A DNA stretch of 31,467 nt from a virus. A program made the position numbers and the translations under genes. The DNA lies in the IMG/VR virus record IMGVR_UViG_3300030107_003274, positions 1 through 31,467 of that record; one strand, 5' to 3'. The notes under the pieces are model-generated. The model did no database searches. It saw nothing but the letters and a program-made list of their open reading frames with translations, and was not told where the DNA came from. This document shows, piece after piece, positions 24,400 to 31,212 of the stretch (positions within the stretch are counted from its first letter, which is position 1; the number at the start of each line of letters is the position of its first letter).

Positions 24400-25557
24400 T
24401 TACCCGAATGCAGCAGGTGCGGTTGCTGTACCAGCGTACAGTTCCACAGCAGCAGCTGGGTTAAGATAATCAGCACCCATTGCCAAGCGGCCAAGGATAA
24501 CATCACCCTGATAAATCACGGAAACGTCACCTGAAGTTACTTGAACTTGAGGTCCAATTGCTTCAACAACACCTGCGGCTTCCTTCTGGAAGATAAGACC
24601 ACAGCTATTCTCGAAGTCTGATGTTCCGTTACCATAGTTGTTTACGGTCTCGGAAGTTTCATCAACCATTTCTACTTCAACGAAGCTACCTTTGTTACCT
24701 GGATCAGTAGTTCCTGGGTTAGTAGCAGATCCTGTACCATACTTAGCACCGAATCTTCCGAAGTAAGGAATGTTCATTGACTTGTAAATCTTGATACCAG
24801 CGATCTCGTAAACACCCTTACCTGATTGTAGGGCATCTCCTTGCTCGTCACGGTTAACAAGATAAGCACCAATACCAGAACCATCTAACCCTTTGATAAG
24901 AGCGTAGTACTGTCTTGGATTTAGTACACCTACACGACCTTCAGAACTTACTCCCTTCTCATCAAGTGCAGCTGCAGCATCATAGAATGCGTTAACTAGC
25001 TTATCTGGATCAAGAGCATCAGAACCGTTAGCTGTTGCGCCAACACGGATCTGGGTTCCACCTGGTTCTACGAAGTTAGTCTTCGTAATAGGTGATGCTT
25101 TACGTGCAGACTTAGTGATTGCACGGAAGATCTTTCTATCATAATTCTCTGCTAGAGCATATCCAATCTTCTTAGATATTTCACCACGTAGATCGTAGTG
25201 TGCAAGAGTCTCATCTAATTCATATACGAATGCACTTGAGATTAATAGATCATCACAAGTAATCGTCTTCTCAGCTACTGGAGGTGCGCCATCACTGTTA
25301 CCAAGAATGGAGTTACCAGGGGTATGGTACTCTGATTTGGTGCGACCCGTGTAGATGAACTGCAATGATTTGCCGTTCTTTAGGGTACGCTTAGTGATAA
25401 GATCCCTTGCAATTGTATTACGTTGGAATCCTTTGAACATCTCTCCAGAAAATAGCTTCAAATATAAGGCACGGCGTTGCGTGGTATTAGCAGCCGCCCC
25501 ATTATCAGCACCAGGTGCGGTAAGCGAAGCCTGATGTGCGGTTGATTGTTGAGCCAT
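24400..25557 (-). CDS. Major capsid protein (T7 gp10-like)
   Basis: 385 residues forming the icosahedral shell (T7 gp10A has 345). Sequence signs are the N-terminal arm (MAQQSTAHQASLTAPGADNG), then RRALYLKLFSGEMFKGFQRN, the E-loop region (TLKNGKSLQFIYTGRTKSEY), DDLLISSAFVYELDETLAHY and the C-terminal QGDVILGRLAMGADYLNPAA, all standard for T7-like marine phages. Codon use and GC content are richer than the neighbours, as expected for the most abundant protein. No Shine-Dalgarno sequence is visible in the 20 bases before the ATG; the leader is AT-rich. A hairpin cluster lies upstream and a strong terminator downstream. I saw no programmed frameshift product like gp10B, since the terminator follows at once. 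Confidence 0.95.
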   Translation of the reverse strand: MAQQSTAHQASLTAPGADNGAAANTTQRRALYLKLFSGEMFKGFQRNTIARDLITKRTLKNGKSLQFIYTGRTKSEYHTPGNSILGNSDGAPPVAEKTITCDDLLISSAFVYELDETLAHYDLRGEISKKIGYALAENYDRKIFRAITKSARKASPITKTNFVEPGGTQIRVGATANGSDALDPDKLVNAFYDAAAALDEKGVSSEGRVGVLNPRQYYALIKGLDGSGIGAYLVNRDEQGDALQSGKGVYEIAGIKIYKSMNIPYFGRFGAKYGTGSATNPGTTDPGNKGSFVEVEMVDETSETVNNYGNGTSDFENSCGLIFQKEAAGVVEAIGPQVQVTSGDVSVIYQGDVILGRLAMGADYLNPAAAVELYAGTATAPAAFG

Positions 25558-25629
25558 TGTTATGGATAAAGTTTATATATACGTTCTTCAGCTGAAAATT
25601 TTTTGATCAGTTTTTTGTGGTCTTTCCCA

Positions 25630-25672
25630 CCGTCTAGACGGCTAAAGGTATCCTCCGTGGAGGGCTAAAGCC
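25630..25672 (-). promoter_or_regulatory. Hairpin cluster in the capsid leader
   Basis: Read on the minus strand this gives GGCTTTAGCC (4-bp stem), CCTCCACGGAGG (4-5-bp stem) and CCGTCTAGACGG (perfect 12-base palindrome, 25630-25641). The sequence TTTAGCC recurs before two of them. It is followed by ~70 AT-rich bases that include TATATATAA (25572-25580), a possible -10-like sequence, and then the capsid ATG. Possible roles are RNase processing or mRNA protection, as around T7 gene 10, or a phage RNA polymerase promoter region. I could not assign one. Confidence 0.55.
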
Positions 25673-25677
25673 AATGA

Positions 25678-25708
25678 AAGAGAGGTCCGACTCTGAGGTG
25701 CCTCTCTT
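25678..25708 (-). terminator. Possible weak terminator or processing hairpin after the accessory cassette
   Basis: An 8-bp stem AAGAGAGG/CCTCTCTT with a 15-base loop begins 5 bases after the stop of the 51-aa gene. The T-tract is poor (TTTCATT), so it may be a leaky terminator or an mRNA-stabilising hairpin. Confidence 0.5.
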
Positions 25709-25713
25709 CCTAG

Positions 25714-25869
25714 TTAACCTGCTAATGCTTCTTCCAAAGATTGAGGTTCTTTTTCATCATCTGTTCCTGGAGGTTGGTATTCACTAGGCATAGTGTCTAC
25801 AGGTTCCTTCTCAGGTTCAGGTGAATATGATGTAACGAATGCTCGTTGAGCTGAACTTTGTTGTGCCAT
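25714..25869 (-). CDS. 51-aa acidic Pro/Glu-rich protein with capsid-like first residues
   Basis: Translated directly: it starts MAQQSSAQRAFVTSYSPEPE and ends DDEKEPQSLEEALAG. It is acidic and disordered-looking except for a short C-terminal helix. Its first residues (MAQQSSAQ) closely match those of the capsid protein (MAQQSTAH), encoded 157 bases downstream. A GAGGAG Shine-Dalgarno sequence precedes the ATG, which shares an A with the stop of the 43-aa gene (TAATG). Function unknown. Possible explanations are a small capsid-associated protein or a remnant of a duplicated capsid N-terminus. Confidence 0.75.
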   Translation of the reverse strand: MAQQSSAQRAFVTSYSPEPEKEPVDTMPSEYQPPGTDDEKEPQSLEEALAG

Positions 25870-26000
25870 TAATACTCCTCTATTTCACATGGTGGGCAGG
25901 ATCTACAGTGTTCATGTTCATACATGTGTAGACCCTCTACTAAAGTAAGGAACCCCAAGAGCATGAATAAACATGCCCAAGGGGATTCTAAATACTTCAT
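25869..26000 (-). CDS. 43-aa single-pass membrane protein with CxxCxxC motif
   Basis: Translated directly: MKYLESPWACLFMLLGFLTL, then VEGLHMYEHEHCRSCPPCEI and EEY. Residues ~8-22 form one hydrophobic span; after it come His26, His29, His31 and Cys32-x-x-Cys35-x-x-Cys38, a set of possible metal ligands or redox thiols. The ATG overlaps the stop of the secreted-protein gene (TGATG) and the stop overlaps the next ATG (TAATG), so it is embedded in a coupled chain. I know no named family. The His/Cys cluster suggests metal binding at a membrane face; this is inference. Confidence 0.75.
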   Translation of the reverse strand: MKYLESPWACLFMLLGFLTLVEGLHMYEHEHCRSCPPCEIEEY

Positions 26001-26368
26001 CAGAAAGTATATTTAACTCCAACCTTGGTTGCCCAAGCGTTGTCGTCATCTGTATCAGAATCTGCTGTTAGTAACGCTAGCTCACCATATACATCTACCT
26101 TATCAGTAGCTGCTACGGAACCACCAACTTTACCAGAAATTCTAGTATCAGATTCATCAGCTCCATCTAATGCAACGATGGCAGGGCCACCTTGTACATA
26201 GAATGATGCTGTATCATTACCACCTTCAAATCCTACATGGACATCTGTGGTAGTGCTGGTGTAATCCGATCCTGTTAGTGAGGAATTTGCCTCTACATTT
26301 ACATATACACCAGCTGTTGCAGGTGTCGCCAGGGCTGTAGTAGCCAGTACGGCAAGTGCTAATTTCAT
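26000..26368 (-). CDS. 122-aa secreted beta-rich protein, small porin-like
   Basis: MKLALAVLATTALATPATA is a clear signal peptide (cleavage expected after residue 19). The mature ~103 residues alternate polar and hydrophobic positions in about six strands (GVYVNVEANS, TTDVHVGFEGG, SFYVQGGPAIVAL, RISGKVGGSVA, KVDVYGELALLT, ATKVGVKYTF). The last residue is Phe, the usual terminal signal of outer-membrane beta-barrels. It is short for a monomeric barrel, so an oligomer or a non-barrel secreted protein is possible. No Shine-Dalgarno sequence precedes its ATG; instead a 16-codon peptide with a strong ribosome site ends 6 bases upstream, so translation is probably coupled to it. Confidence 0.75.
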   Translation of the reverse strand: MKLALAVLATTALATPATAGVYVNVEANSSLTGSDYTSTTTDVHVGFEGGNDTASFYVQGGPAIVALDGADESDTRISGKVGGSVAATDKVDVYGELALLTADSDTDDDNAWATKVGVKYTF

Positions 26369-26374
26369 TGTTAA

Positions 26375-26425
26375 TTAAATAATTTTGGTATAAGGGATAC
26401 CACGATACTTTAGTTGGACTTTCAT
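26375..26425 (-). CDS. 16-aa peptide behind the riboswitch, translation-coupling leader
   Basis: The peptide MKVQLKYRGIPYTKII has an ideal ribosome site: AAGGAG (26433-26438), 7 bases before its ATG. The core 'LKYRGxPY' resembles the start of the small cyanobacterial DUF4278 proteins (typically MKLTYRGxxY), which I recall in cyanobacteria and cyanophages. Its stop codon is 6 bases before the secreted-protein ATG, which has no ribosome site of its own. It sits exactly where the short ORF of the 'Downstream-peptide' RNA motif is expected. Either the peptide has a function or its translation serves to deliver ribosomes to the next gene. Confidence 0.7.
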   Translation of the reverse strand: MKVQLKYRGIPYTKII

Positions 26426-26500
26426 TAGTCTTCTCCTTAGTACCTAACCCCCGTTCCATGGTTAGGGTTCATGCGTCCTGTTAAGGATGAACGGACGTGG
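26426..26500 (-). promoter_or_regulatory. Candidate glutamine-II (Downstream-peptide) riboswitch
   Basis: Read on the minus strand, three pairings can be drawn: GTTCAT (26487-26492) with ATGAAC (26467-26472); CCTAACC (26460-26466) with GGTTAGG (26443-26449); and loop TCCTTA (26482-26487) with TAAGGA (26434-26439), which is part of the Shine-Dalgarno sequence. This gives two hairpins and a pseudoknot that would hide the ribosome site. A further pair, CGTCC (26493-26497) with GGACG (26474-26478), competes with these. The core 'CGTTCATCC...GGACGCAT' resembles, from memory, the glnA/Downstream-peptide family, known from marine picocyanobacteria and a cyanophage, located before a short-peptide ORF and shown to bind L-glutamine. 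The setting (hli upstream, 16-codon ORF downstream) fits. Not confirmed by a covariance search. Confidence 0.68.
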
Positions 26501-26502
26501 TA

Positions 26503-26664
26503 TTAAAGTATGCCAGGGATGATCTGACCTGTTGTAAGATATGCTCCTACTGCTGCTACGAATCCTATCATCGCAAGCTGTCCATTAACTCTCTCTGCAT
26601 TTTCAGAGTATTTAATATCTAGTACTTGAACGGTAGGTTCAGAAGCGAAACGATTGTCTGTCAT
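26503..26664 (-). CDS. hli: High-light-inducible protein (Hli, one-helix chlorophyll-binding protein)
   Basis: A 53-aa protein translated directly. Residues 21-35 read ENAERVNGQLAMIGF, the ExxNGxxAMxGF chlorophyll a/b-binding motif of Hlips, followed by a hydrophobic helix (VAAVGAYLTTG) and the typical QIIPGIL end. Hlips sit in the thylakoid membrane with photosystem II, bind pigment and dissipate excess light energy. Cyanophages carry them, usually with psbA, to protect photosynthesis during infection. It lies 60 bases after the 38-aa gene. No Shine-Dalgarno sequence precedes the ATG; the leader is AT-rich (TATTTTTATTATTA). The candidate riboswitch starts within a few bases of its stop. Confidence 0.95.
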   Translation of the reverse strand: MTDNRFASEPTVQVLDIKYSENAERVNGQLAMIGFVAAVGAYLTTGQIIPGIL

Positions 26665-26724
26665 TAATAATAAAAATAGATTAATGGCCGAGGATGATAG
26701 GTCAGGTCGGCACGATATACTATC

Positions 26725-26841
26725 TTATACACCTTTAGGATATATTGCTGCAGCTTCTAGAAGAATTTTAATCTTCTTCTTAGGTGATTTACCTTGAGCT
26801 GATTTGACTTTCTTATCAAATTTATTGTAGTGTCCAGGCAT
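26725..26841 (-). CDS. 38-aa basic protein coupled to psbA
   Basis: Translated directly: [20 protein letters not shown], then KKKIKILLEAAAIYPKGV. It is Lys-rich with a short C-terminal amphipathic stretch. Its ATG shares an A with the psbA stop (TAATG), so ribosomes finishing D1 could re-initiate here. Small basic 'MPGxY' peptides occur in cyanophages as far as I recall, without known function. The tight coupling to psbA makes expression with D1 very likely; a role in D1 assembly or repair is only a hypothesis. Confidence 0.7.
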   Translation of the reverse strand: MPGHYNKFDKKVKSAQGKSPKKKIKILLEAAAIYPKGV

Positions 26842-27869
26842 TATGCTAAATCCAATGGGAAATTGTGTGCATTTCTTTCATGCATTACTTCCATACCTAA
26901 GTCGGCACGGTTAAGTATATCTGCCCATGTTGGTACAACTTTACCACTTGAATCTACAATGGATTGATTGAAATTAAACCCGTTGAGATTGAATGCCATA
27001 GTTGCGATTCCCATAGAGGTAAGCCATATGCCCACGACTGGGAAAACACCAAGAAAGAAATGAAGAGAACGAGAATTATTAAAGCTCGCATATTGAAATA
27101 TAAGTCTACCGAAATAACCGTGGGCGGCTACGATGTTATAAGTCTCTTCTTCTTGACCAAACTTGTAGCCATAGTTTTGTGATTCATTATCTGTTGTCTC
27201 TTTAACAATAGAACTAGAGACCAATGATCCGTGCATAGCAGCGAACAAAGCCCCACCAAATACCCCCGCAACACCCAACATATGGAAAGGATGCATGAGG
27301 ATATTATGTTCCGCTTGAAAGACAAACATAAAGTTGAACGTTCCTGATATCCCCAACGGCATACCGTCAGAGAAACTTCCTTGCCCGAAAGGATATACCA
27401 GGAAGACAGCGAATGACGCTGCAACGGGCGCTGAATAAGCAACACAAATCCAGGGACGCATCCCTAATCTATAACTAAGTTCCCATTGTCGTCCCATGTA
27501 TGCTGCAATACCGATGAGAAAGTGGAACACAATAAGTTGATATGGTCCTCCGTTATATAACCACTCGTCGAGGGTTGCAGCTTCCCAGATTGGGTAGAAG
27601 TGAAGACCGATTGCGTTGCTTGATGGCACGACTGCGCCTGAGATGATGTTGTTTCCATAGAGTAGTGATCCAGCAACTGGTTCACGTATCCCGTCTATGT
27701 CTACAGGCGGTGCTGCGATGAAAGCGATAATGAAACAAGTAGCTGCAGTAAGTAAGCATGGAATCATGAGGACACCAAACCACCCCACGTAGAGGCGGTT
27801 GTTGGTGCTTGTAACCCAGTCGCAGAACTGATTCCAATTATTCTGCTTAGGTAGTGTGAGTGTACTCAT
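26841..27869 (-). CDS. psbA: Photosystem II reaction-centre protein D1, without C-terminal extension
   Basis: 342 residues, intact, in standard numbering minus 2. All key residues are present: Tyr-Z Y159 (Y161), D168 (D170), E187/H188 (E189/H190), chlorophyll ligand H196 (H198), iron ligands H213/H270 (H215/H272), S262 (S264, QB/herbicide site) and H330, E331, H335, D340, A342 for the Mn4CaO5 cluster. Residue 128 (130) is Gln, the form usual in low-light D1. The protein ends exactly at the alanine that is the mature C-terminus (A344), so no CtpA-cleaved extension exists. D1 supplied by the phage replaces photodamaged host D1 so that photosynthesis can power infection. The start overlaps the preceding stop (ATGA), leaving no untranslated leader. 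Confidence 0.99.
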
Positions 27870-30778: not shown

Positions 30779-31025
30779 TTAATCCTTGACCTCCTTGTTG
30801 TTCATCAACATTCAATGGTATCCTCAAAGCATCTGCACCTGTTCTATTAGCATCAGCGATAGAAGATTCTCTTCTGGAACCATAATTTACAGTTGCATCT
30901 ACTTCATCTTTATCAGCTAGGTCTATAGGATTAGGTAAAGATTCTTTAATTACTGGAGGTGGTGTTATTGGTGGTGGTGCTGCACCTGCCTTTTGTACAG
31001 GTGGTGAGAAAAAATTCTTACACAT
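30771..31025 (-). CDS. 84-aa protein upstream of portal, possibly T7 gp7.3-like tail assembly protein
   Basis: Begins MCKNFFSPPVQKAGAAPPPI, with a Pro/Ala-rich first third, an acidic middle (DLADKDEVDATVNYGSRRES) and a C-terminus RTGADALRIPLNVDEQQGGQ GLNV. The 'S.R....G..ALRIPL......GLN(I/V)' ending resembles the C-terminal pattern of small tail assembly proteins, and T7 gp7.3 occupies the same place before gene 8 and ends GGGINI. It overlaps its upstream gene by 8 bases and portal by 8 bases. Similarity to gp7.3 is based on the tail pattern and position only. Confidence 0.55.
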   Translation of the reverse strand: MCKNFFSPPVQKAGAAPPPITPPPVIKESLPNPIDLADKDEVDATVNYGSRRESSIADANRTGADALRIPLNVDEQQGGQGLNV

Positions 31026-31212
31026 TAGTTTCGTCTAATAATGTCTTAACATAATCTACTACGCTTGTTTGACCAGCTCTGTACATGATAGAAGCAATCT
31101 GTTCTTTAGGATGGACAGGTTGAGGAGGAAACTTATTTTCTAAATCCTCAACCAATTTCTCTAACTTCTCTGAGTGTATGTTAAGCGTAGCTGGGTAAAT
31201 TTGTGTTTGCAT
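31018..31212 (-). CDS. 64-aa hypothetical protein
   Basis: From the ATG at 31212: MQTQIYPATLNIHSEKLEKL, then VEDLENKFPPQPVHPKEQIA and SIMYRAGQTSVVDYVKTLLD. A TTG two codons upstream is an alternative start. The protein is small, soluble and helical, with a central Pro-rich hinge. It overlaps the reductase gene by 32 bases and the next gene by 8. Similar small proteins with an 'SIMYRAGQxSVVxY(V/I)' stretch occur at this site in cyanopodoviruses as far as I recall; function unknown. Confidence 0.65.
   Translation of the reverse strand: MQTQIYPATLNIHSEKLEKLVEDLENKFPPQPVHPKEQIASIMYRAGQTSVVDYVKTLLDETNV

Follow-up and report, generated by a model that had tools for sequence, protein, structure and literature searches.

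The window analysed here, the whole 31,467-nucleotide stretch of the IMG/VR virus record IMGVR_UViG_3300030107_003274, carries on its minus strand a photosynthesis cassette with the major capsid protein gene downstream of it. The initial annotation had placed a candidate glutamine-II riboswitch and a 16-residue peptide between hli and a secreted-protein gene, beside the cyanophage photosynthesis genes, and both the segment (hli at 26664-26503, Phage_OMP at 26368-26000) and the position beside psbA and hli were borne out. The strong Shine-Dalgarno sequence and the 16-codon ORF that it had described are also both present on the minus strand (AAGGAG at 26438-26433, ATG at 26425). In the order of the minus strand, the features are as follows.

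26841 to 27869, minus strand: psbA (photosystem II D1), PF00124, E 7.8e-89
26503 to 26664, minus strand: hli (high-light inducible protein), phrog_178, E 1.1e-20
26442 to 26496, minus strand: Glutamine-II riboswitch aptamer (RF01704), Rfam 56.5 bits, covariation in homologues
26433 to 26438, minus strand: Shine-Dalgarno sequence AAGGAG, 7 nt ahead of the ATG of the peptide ORF
26375 to 26425, minus strand: peptide ORF of 16 codons plus stop, MKVQLKYRGIPYTKII, with a YRGxxY motif and a net charge of +4
26000 to 26368, minus strand: Phage_OMP beta-barrel gene, secreted, 122 aa, PF24653, E 1.3e-41
24400 to 25557, minus strand: major capsid protein gene, landmark downstream of the cassette, PF21703, E 7.4e-74

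The hli stop codon and the aptamer core are separated by 9 nt, the ORF starts 17 nt past the aptamer, and Phage_OMP starts 6 nt past the peptide stop without a Shine-Dalgarno sequence of its own in the window; in relatives, Phage_OMP likewise follows the peptide, with gaps of 0-17 nt. On the opposite strand to these genes, ARAGORN called a tRNA-Thr (TGT) at 30959-31048 (plus strand), which is probably spurious because the Rfam scan of the window gave no tRNA match there.

Identity and conservation of the aptamer

RF01704 was the sole Rfam match in the whole window (cmscan, Rfam 15; 56.5 bits, E 2.6e-11, the curated gathering cut-off being 33 bits), and a more permissive Rfam scan returned RF01704 again (E 1.2e-12) with no further match nearby. 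Glutamine-I (RF01739) gave no match in the window, and none at E up to 1 within 25300-26700. These were the two models that the initial annotation had named for comparison, and its glutamine-II reading is supported by a score far above the RF01704 cut-off, by compensatory changes in homologues and by the conserved peptide ORF; at the level of sequence, the window element is confirmed as a Glutamine-II riboswitch aptamer. Its parts are listed below.

26489 to 26493, minus strand: pseudoknot 5' strand CGUUC (C1-C5, crystal numbering), from the sequence, partner 26456-26452
26476 to 26487, minus strand: P1 stem-loop UCCU..AGGA, 4/4 pairs with double-sided changes in homologues
26473 to 26475, minus strand: linking strand C17-G18-C19, sequence matched to PMC6698751
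26452 to 26456, minus strand: pseudoknot 3' strand GAACG, from the sequence and the Rfam alignment
26450 to 26451, minus strand: G41 (26451, partner C19) and G42 (26450, partner A33), from the sequence and the Rfam alignment
26443 to 26466, minus strand: P2 stem CCUAACC/GGUUAGG around the pseudoknot 3' strand, 7/7 pairs covary

The order of the RNA is C1-GUUC-A-[P1 UCCU..AGGA]-C17-G18-C19-A..[P2 CCUAACC]-A33-U-G-GAACG-G41-G42-[P2 GGUUAGG], and the window RNA is built like the Prochlorococcus RS01 crystal construct, in which glutamine contacts C1, G18, C39 and G40 (and G2) (PMC6698751). All of C1, G2, G18, C39 and G40 are found in the window RNA, as are the pseudoknot CGUUC/GAACG and the long-range pairs C19:G41 and A33:G42, and the window copy has P1, P2 and the pseudoknot intact. 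Of the two hairpins in the initial annotation, CCTAACC/GGTTAGG stands and corresponds to P2, whereas the sequences GTTCAT/ATGAAC exist but are ruled out as a helix of the glutamine-bound fold, which pairs CGUUC (26493-26489) with GAACG (26456-26452); when the minimum-energy fold of the window RNA is computed without the pseudoknot, GUUCAU/AUGAAC forms and competes with that pairing.

Across 27 sequences, 99.1% of the pair cells were standard and 11 pairs had changed on both sides, and across the 54 survey matches (window included) 98.1% were standard with 12 two-sided pairs; shuffles were as good in 0/500 cases for each set, the permutation tests comparing related and hence not independent sequences. 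The covariation signal was gone when the partners were slid by 1-3 columns. The compensatory changes that the initial annotation had looked for in homologues were found at every P1 and P2 pair, plus one in the pseudoknot, where C5:G36 became U:A in one locus (L365), the model used not encoding the pseudoknot. The invariance of the pseudoknot in the pattern-found set is partly imposed, because the pattern fixes the pseudoknot letters. A pattern scan of genome contigs proved too loose, its matches outside cyanobacteria being mostly chance, and only its Prochlorococcus and Synechococcus loci were used, re-tested with Rfam.

The element, mostly unannotated, was observed in P-SSP7, P-SSP2, P-SSP3, P-SSP6, P-SSP10, P-GSP1, NATL1A-7, NATL2A-133 and 9515-10a; in S-TIP37, S-TIP28, S-RIP1, S-RIP2, S-CBP1 and S-CBP4; and in uncultured relatives. 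Among the reference T7-like loci, 16/17 lie above the Rfam gathering score, the exception being L281 from S-SBP1. The four bases 5' of the T7-like aptamer core (-4 to -1; window 26497-26494) were almost invariant. Short-peptide loci read CGUC at these positions (C 69/70, G 65/70, U 70/70, C 68/70) and longer-peptide loci often CGUA, bases that are not shared by hosts.

Because the motif should not be fixed in advance, a survey was anchored on the capsid protein, by which 80 viral contigs were fetched (relatives of 72-87% capsid identity) and searched with a covariance model built in this analysis without the pseudoknot. Where at least 450 nt were available upstream of the capsid gene, 50/59 contigs carry the aptamer at E 1e-5 or better; the remaining nine comprise one weak match (L361) and eight contigs without a match, some of which may lack the aptamer owing to the contig ending too early. 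The peptide family was likewise not found in these eight loci, one of which (L303) has an unrelated-looking YRG ORF. All survey matches lie upstream of the capsid gene and in sense with it.

A conserved, unannotated RNA structure was also observed just upstream of the capsid gene at 25674-25615 (minus strand), with a further hairpin to about 25710, and the Rfam 15 scan gave no match for the structure at 25674-25615. It consists of a GGN stem, a UNCG-like hairpin (CUG-UACG-CAG, CUC-CACG-GAG and other variants), GUCUAGAC and a GUGG/CCAC hairpin. The UNCG-like hairpin pairs in all 83 distinct copies (20 stem types), as against 23% with swapped halves, and compensatory changes occur in the GG[C/A/U]/[G/U/A]CC stem and in the GUGG/CCAC stem (GUAGG/CCUAC, GUGUG/CACAC). 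The structure was found in 38 phage records, including some without the riboswitch, and is a candidate new RNA family in the leader of the capsid mRNA.

The YRG peptide and its counterparts in hosts and other phages

The window peptide holds a single YRGxxY copy, YRGIPY, and the host proteins are mostly two-motif. A YRGxxY peptide of 13-40 residues follows 52/53 survey aptamers (window excluded), and this is the unbiased figure because the 122 distinct motif-bearing phage peptides over all loci, the shortest of 13 residues (MVTYVYRGVVYTK), were picked by the motif. At random positions in the same contigs, a YRGxxY ORF occurred at 95/32000 (0.3%), some being real sites. The in-frame pN/pS of the peptide ORF was 0.42, whereas off-frame readings gave about 1.4, over cores that include the motif-selected codons (Y, R, G, Y), with the third codon position the most variable, and a positive charge was found in 87/87 phage peptides of 39 residues or fewer.

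Against Pfam DUF4278 (PF14105; cut-off 25.3), the longer phage peptides ranged from no match up to 51 bits, and those phage peptides of 20-38 aa that have a single motif fell below the cut-off, the 16-residue peptide being too short for a family profile search. As the longer phage peptides lie partly above and partly below the cut-off, the window peptide is regarded as a one-motif relative of the family, not a member. The C-terminal inhibitory region of the IF7 type (IF17/IF7) is absent from the 16-residue peptide, which stops just past the YRG motif. In two phage loci (L112, L113), peptides with the N-terminus MNPLALIKQQLEKAARLREAQ fused to a YRG motif were observed, and these resemble host proteins of a second type under Glutamine-II control (MNNLALTKKRIKKAERLHAAQ...; host loci L267-L269).

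Ten Prochlorococcus and Synechococcus genomes contain 2-7 Glutamine-II RNAs each, which mostly precede multi-motif YRG (DUF4278-type) proteins, e.g. MTLIYRGQKYVQNKEAAKKQHNELTYRGKTYTS; most copies precede proteins of 33-58 aa with two or three YRG motifs. An NtcA-type box (GTA-N8-TAC) was found within 45 nt upstream in 20/25 distinct host flanks versus 2/105 phage flanks (short and mid peptide classes), indicating that the phage appears to retain the glutamine input and not the transcription-factor input.

Phage peptides of at least 40 aa had initially been assigned to Glutamine-II on account of sequence motifs common to the two aptamers, and this assignment was rejected: of those tested with Rfam, most were Glutamine-I or below the cut-off, L007 being an exception with Glutamine-II. 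Glutamine-I (RF01739) precedes YRG peptides of 42-61 aa, most of them two-motif, in five long-peptide phage contigs (L031, L063, L067, L101 and L105). The long-peptide group is called T4-like on the basis of L016, a contig of this group whose DNA resembles T4-like cyanophages and which is itself without an Rfam match, and of YRG matches in T4-like phages; the YRG loci of P-HM1 and P-SSM7 gave no glutamine match in Rfam. Several contigs of the group show two aptamer-like units in tandem. A tentative reading, possible but less likely than not, is that T7-like and T4-like cyanophages may both have brought a YRG micropeptide under glutamine control by way of two aptamer classes, as a single-motif mimic or competitor of host riboswitch-controlled nitrogen-status proteins that is NtcA-free and produced only at high host glutamine; if true, the phage would impose control on host nitrogen metabolism through a peptide of 13-17 residues.

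Proposed switching mechanism and alternatives

It is likely that the element switches translation of the peptide ORF in response to glutamine. Glutamine binding and the ON direction are attributed to it by analogy with the riboswitch family, in which ON behaviour was reported for a Prochlorococcus copy (PMC6316151) and a Kd of 190 uM for a host-derived RNA (PMC6698751); co-transcription, the ribosome-site mechanism, the coupling and the mimicry are what we infer in this analysis. Translational control is favoured because of the intercistronic position (median of 11 nt from the upstream stop to the aptamer core in phage copies), because no sigma-70-type promoter or terminator was found near the aptamer on the minus strand, and because the ribosome site lies within a few nt of it.

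A polycistronic phage mRNA would carry psbA, hli, the riboswitch, the peptide, Phage_OMP and, further on, the capsid gene, with the riboswitch between two genes. High host glutamine would stabilise the CGUUC/GAACG pseudoknot, the formation of which would break the alternative pairing around its 5' strand and free the ribosome-binding site, so that the 16-residue cationic peptide could be translated; the neighbouring Phage_OMP gene of this genome may be translationally coupled to the peptide ORF. The peptide would be a one-motif miniature of the host riboswitch-controlled YRG (DUF4278-type) proteins and would most likely bind the same host partner, adjusting nitrogen or glutamine control during infection. 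Taken alone, this mimicry step is quite possible, though short of probable.

Without the pseudoknot, the window RNA folds GUUCAU/AUGAAC and pairs the Shine-Dalgarno GGA with UCC, and imposing the bound fold raises the predicted openness of the Shine-Dalgarno sequence from 0.54 to 0.89 (folding energies, pseudoknot ignored); over 96 phage sequences, the mean predicted openness rises little, from 0.52 to 0.57. The upstream strand forms a mean Watson-Crick helix of 4.66 with its own ribosome site and of 4.05 with swapped partners (0/2000 permutations). This complementarity occurs in many relatives, e.g. GTAGACTCCA/TGGAGTCTAC in L052, where it reaches 11 Watson-Crick pairs, and a helix of at least 7 pairs was observed in 17/104 sequences. 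An upstream anti-Shine-Dalgarno strand was rejected as a universal mechanism, since the long-peptide class did not show it and the window helix spans only 3 bp, for which reason the upstream-strand part of the mechanism is inferred for the window.

The peptide could instead be merely a leader ORF, with the switch chiefly governing Phage_OMP or later genes by translational coupling, as might be expected from the window and its nearest relatives, where Phage_OMP begins 0-17 nt past the peptide stop and has no Shine-Dalgarno sequence. This is unlikely, since P-SSP7, P-GSP1 and others keep the peptide without Phage_OMP after it, and since YRGxxY is conserved with an in-frame codon bias among the T7-like phages and is met again in hosts and in phages of the T4-like kind. 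The sense orientation of all survey matches upstream of the capsid gene would also suit a device that controls the capsid operon further downstream by attenuation or antitermination of transcription, an explanation made very improbable by the missing terminator-like site near the aptamer on the minus strand, by a ribosome-binding site only a few nt past the aptamer, and by an aptamer-capsid gene distance that varies from 162 to 1141 nt where measured.

The strong covariation, a binding core that hardly varies and the in-frame conservation of the peptide over dozens of divergent phages, together with the intact window copy, leave hardly any probability for a captured host fragment that has lost its function in this phage, for which the close relative L311 may be cited, as it retains the peptide beside an altered P1 (41.3 bits with our own model, 37.7 with Rfam). 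The preferred reading is the translational switch acting on the peptide.

Comparison with known glutamine-responsive systems

The main photosynthesisers of the ocean, where growth is widely limited by nitrogen, are hosts of T7-like cyanophages. With a glutamine sensor encoded by most of the genomes examined here, these phages would sense the nitrogen status of the host directly by RNA, and a conserved product down to 13 residues makes the function of DUF4278/YRG proteins in picocyanobacteria easier to approach. Earlier work has established the riboswitch class, the ON response and the association with ORFs that are short or encode DUF4278 (PMC2864571, PMC6316151), and the remark in the initial annotation that the motif was already known from a phage is plausible. 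In the literature searched, which was covered incompletely, no description was found of how widespread Glutamine-II is in phages, of Glutamine-II in T7-like cyanophages, of the minimal peptide or of YRG micropeptides as a phage family. The parts consulted of three reports of glutamine riboswitches in T4-like cyanophages and other marine myophages (PMC9602691, PMC9964418, PMC9004378) describe elements that are likewise phage-borne but of the glnA (Glutamine-I) type where the type is named, and these parts held no mention of Glutamine-II in T7-like phages or of YRG micropeptides.

The host RF01704 elements of marine picocyanobacteria resemble the window element in aptamer sequence and fold, in the short ORF that comes next and in its YRG-type product, whereas the window element is phage-borne, lies 9 nt past a stop codon, has no NtcA box and precedes a one-motif product of 16 aa. 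Yfr6 of Prochlorococcus MED4 and SS120 is similar in that a Downstream-peptide RNA is followed by a short peptide, reported at 33 aa (PMC2864571, PMC1242208, PMC2518516), the 5' regions of the yfr6 ORFs being Downstream-peptide RNAs (PMC2864571); the host copies observed here include 33-aa two-motif YRG peptides, whose identity with the Yfr6 peptide is suggested by length and context. It differs in being a host locus with a separate 244-nt transcript and an antisense RNA, Yfr14, that goes up in phage infection: in an array study of infected MED4, Yfr14 increased, as did a further antisense RNA lying opposite a gene similar to the Yfr6 peptide (PMC2518516), which is compatible with a contest over this peptide family.

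Synechocystis gifB, which encodes IF17 with an N-terminal DUF4278, is comparable as a DUF4278-bearing protein made in response to glutamine (PMC6316151), but it is controlled by a Glutamine-I aptamer, and IF17 has a C-terminal glutamine-synthetase-inhibiting half that is absent from the phage peptide. Host DUF4278 proteins are similar to the N-terminal part of IF17. Since this part, covered by DUF4278, stabilises IF17 and is not the inhibitory half (PMC6316151), the phage peptide would be likelier to mimic host YRG proteins or compete with them than to inhibit glutamine synthetase directly.
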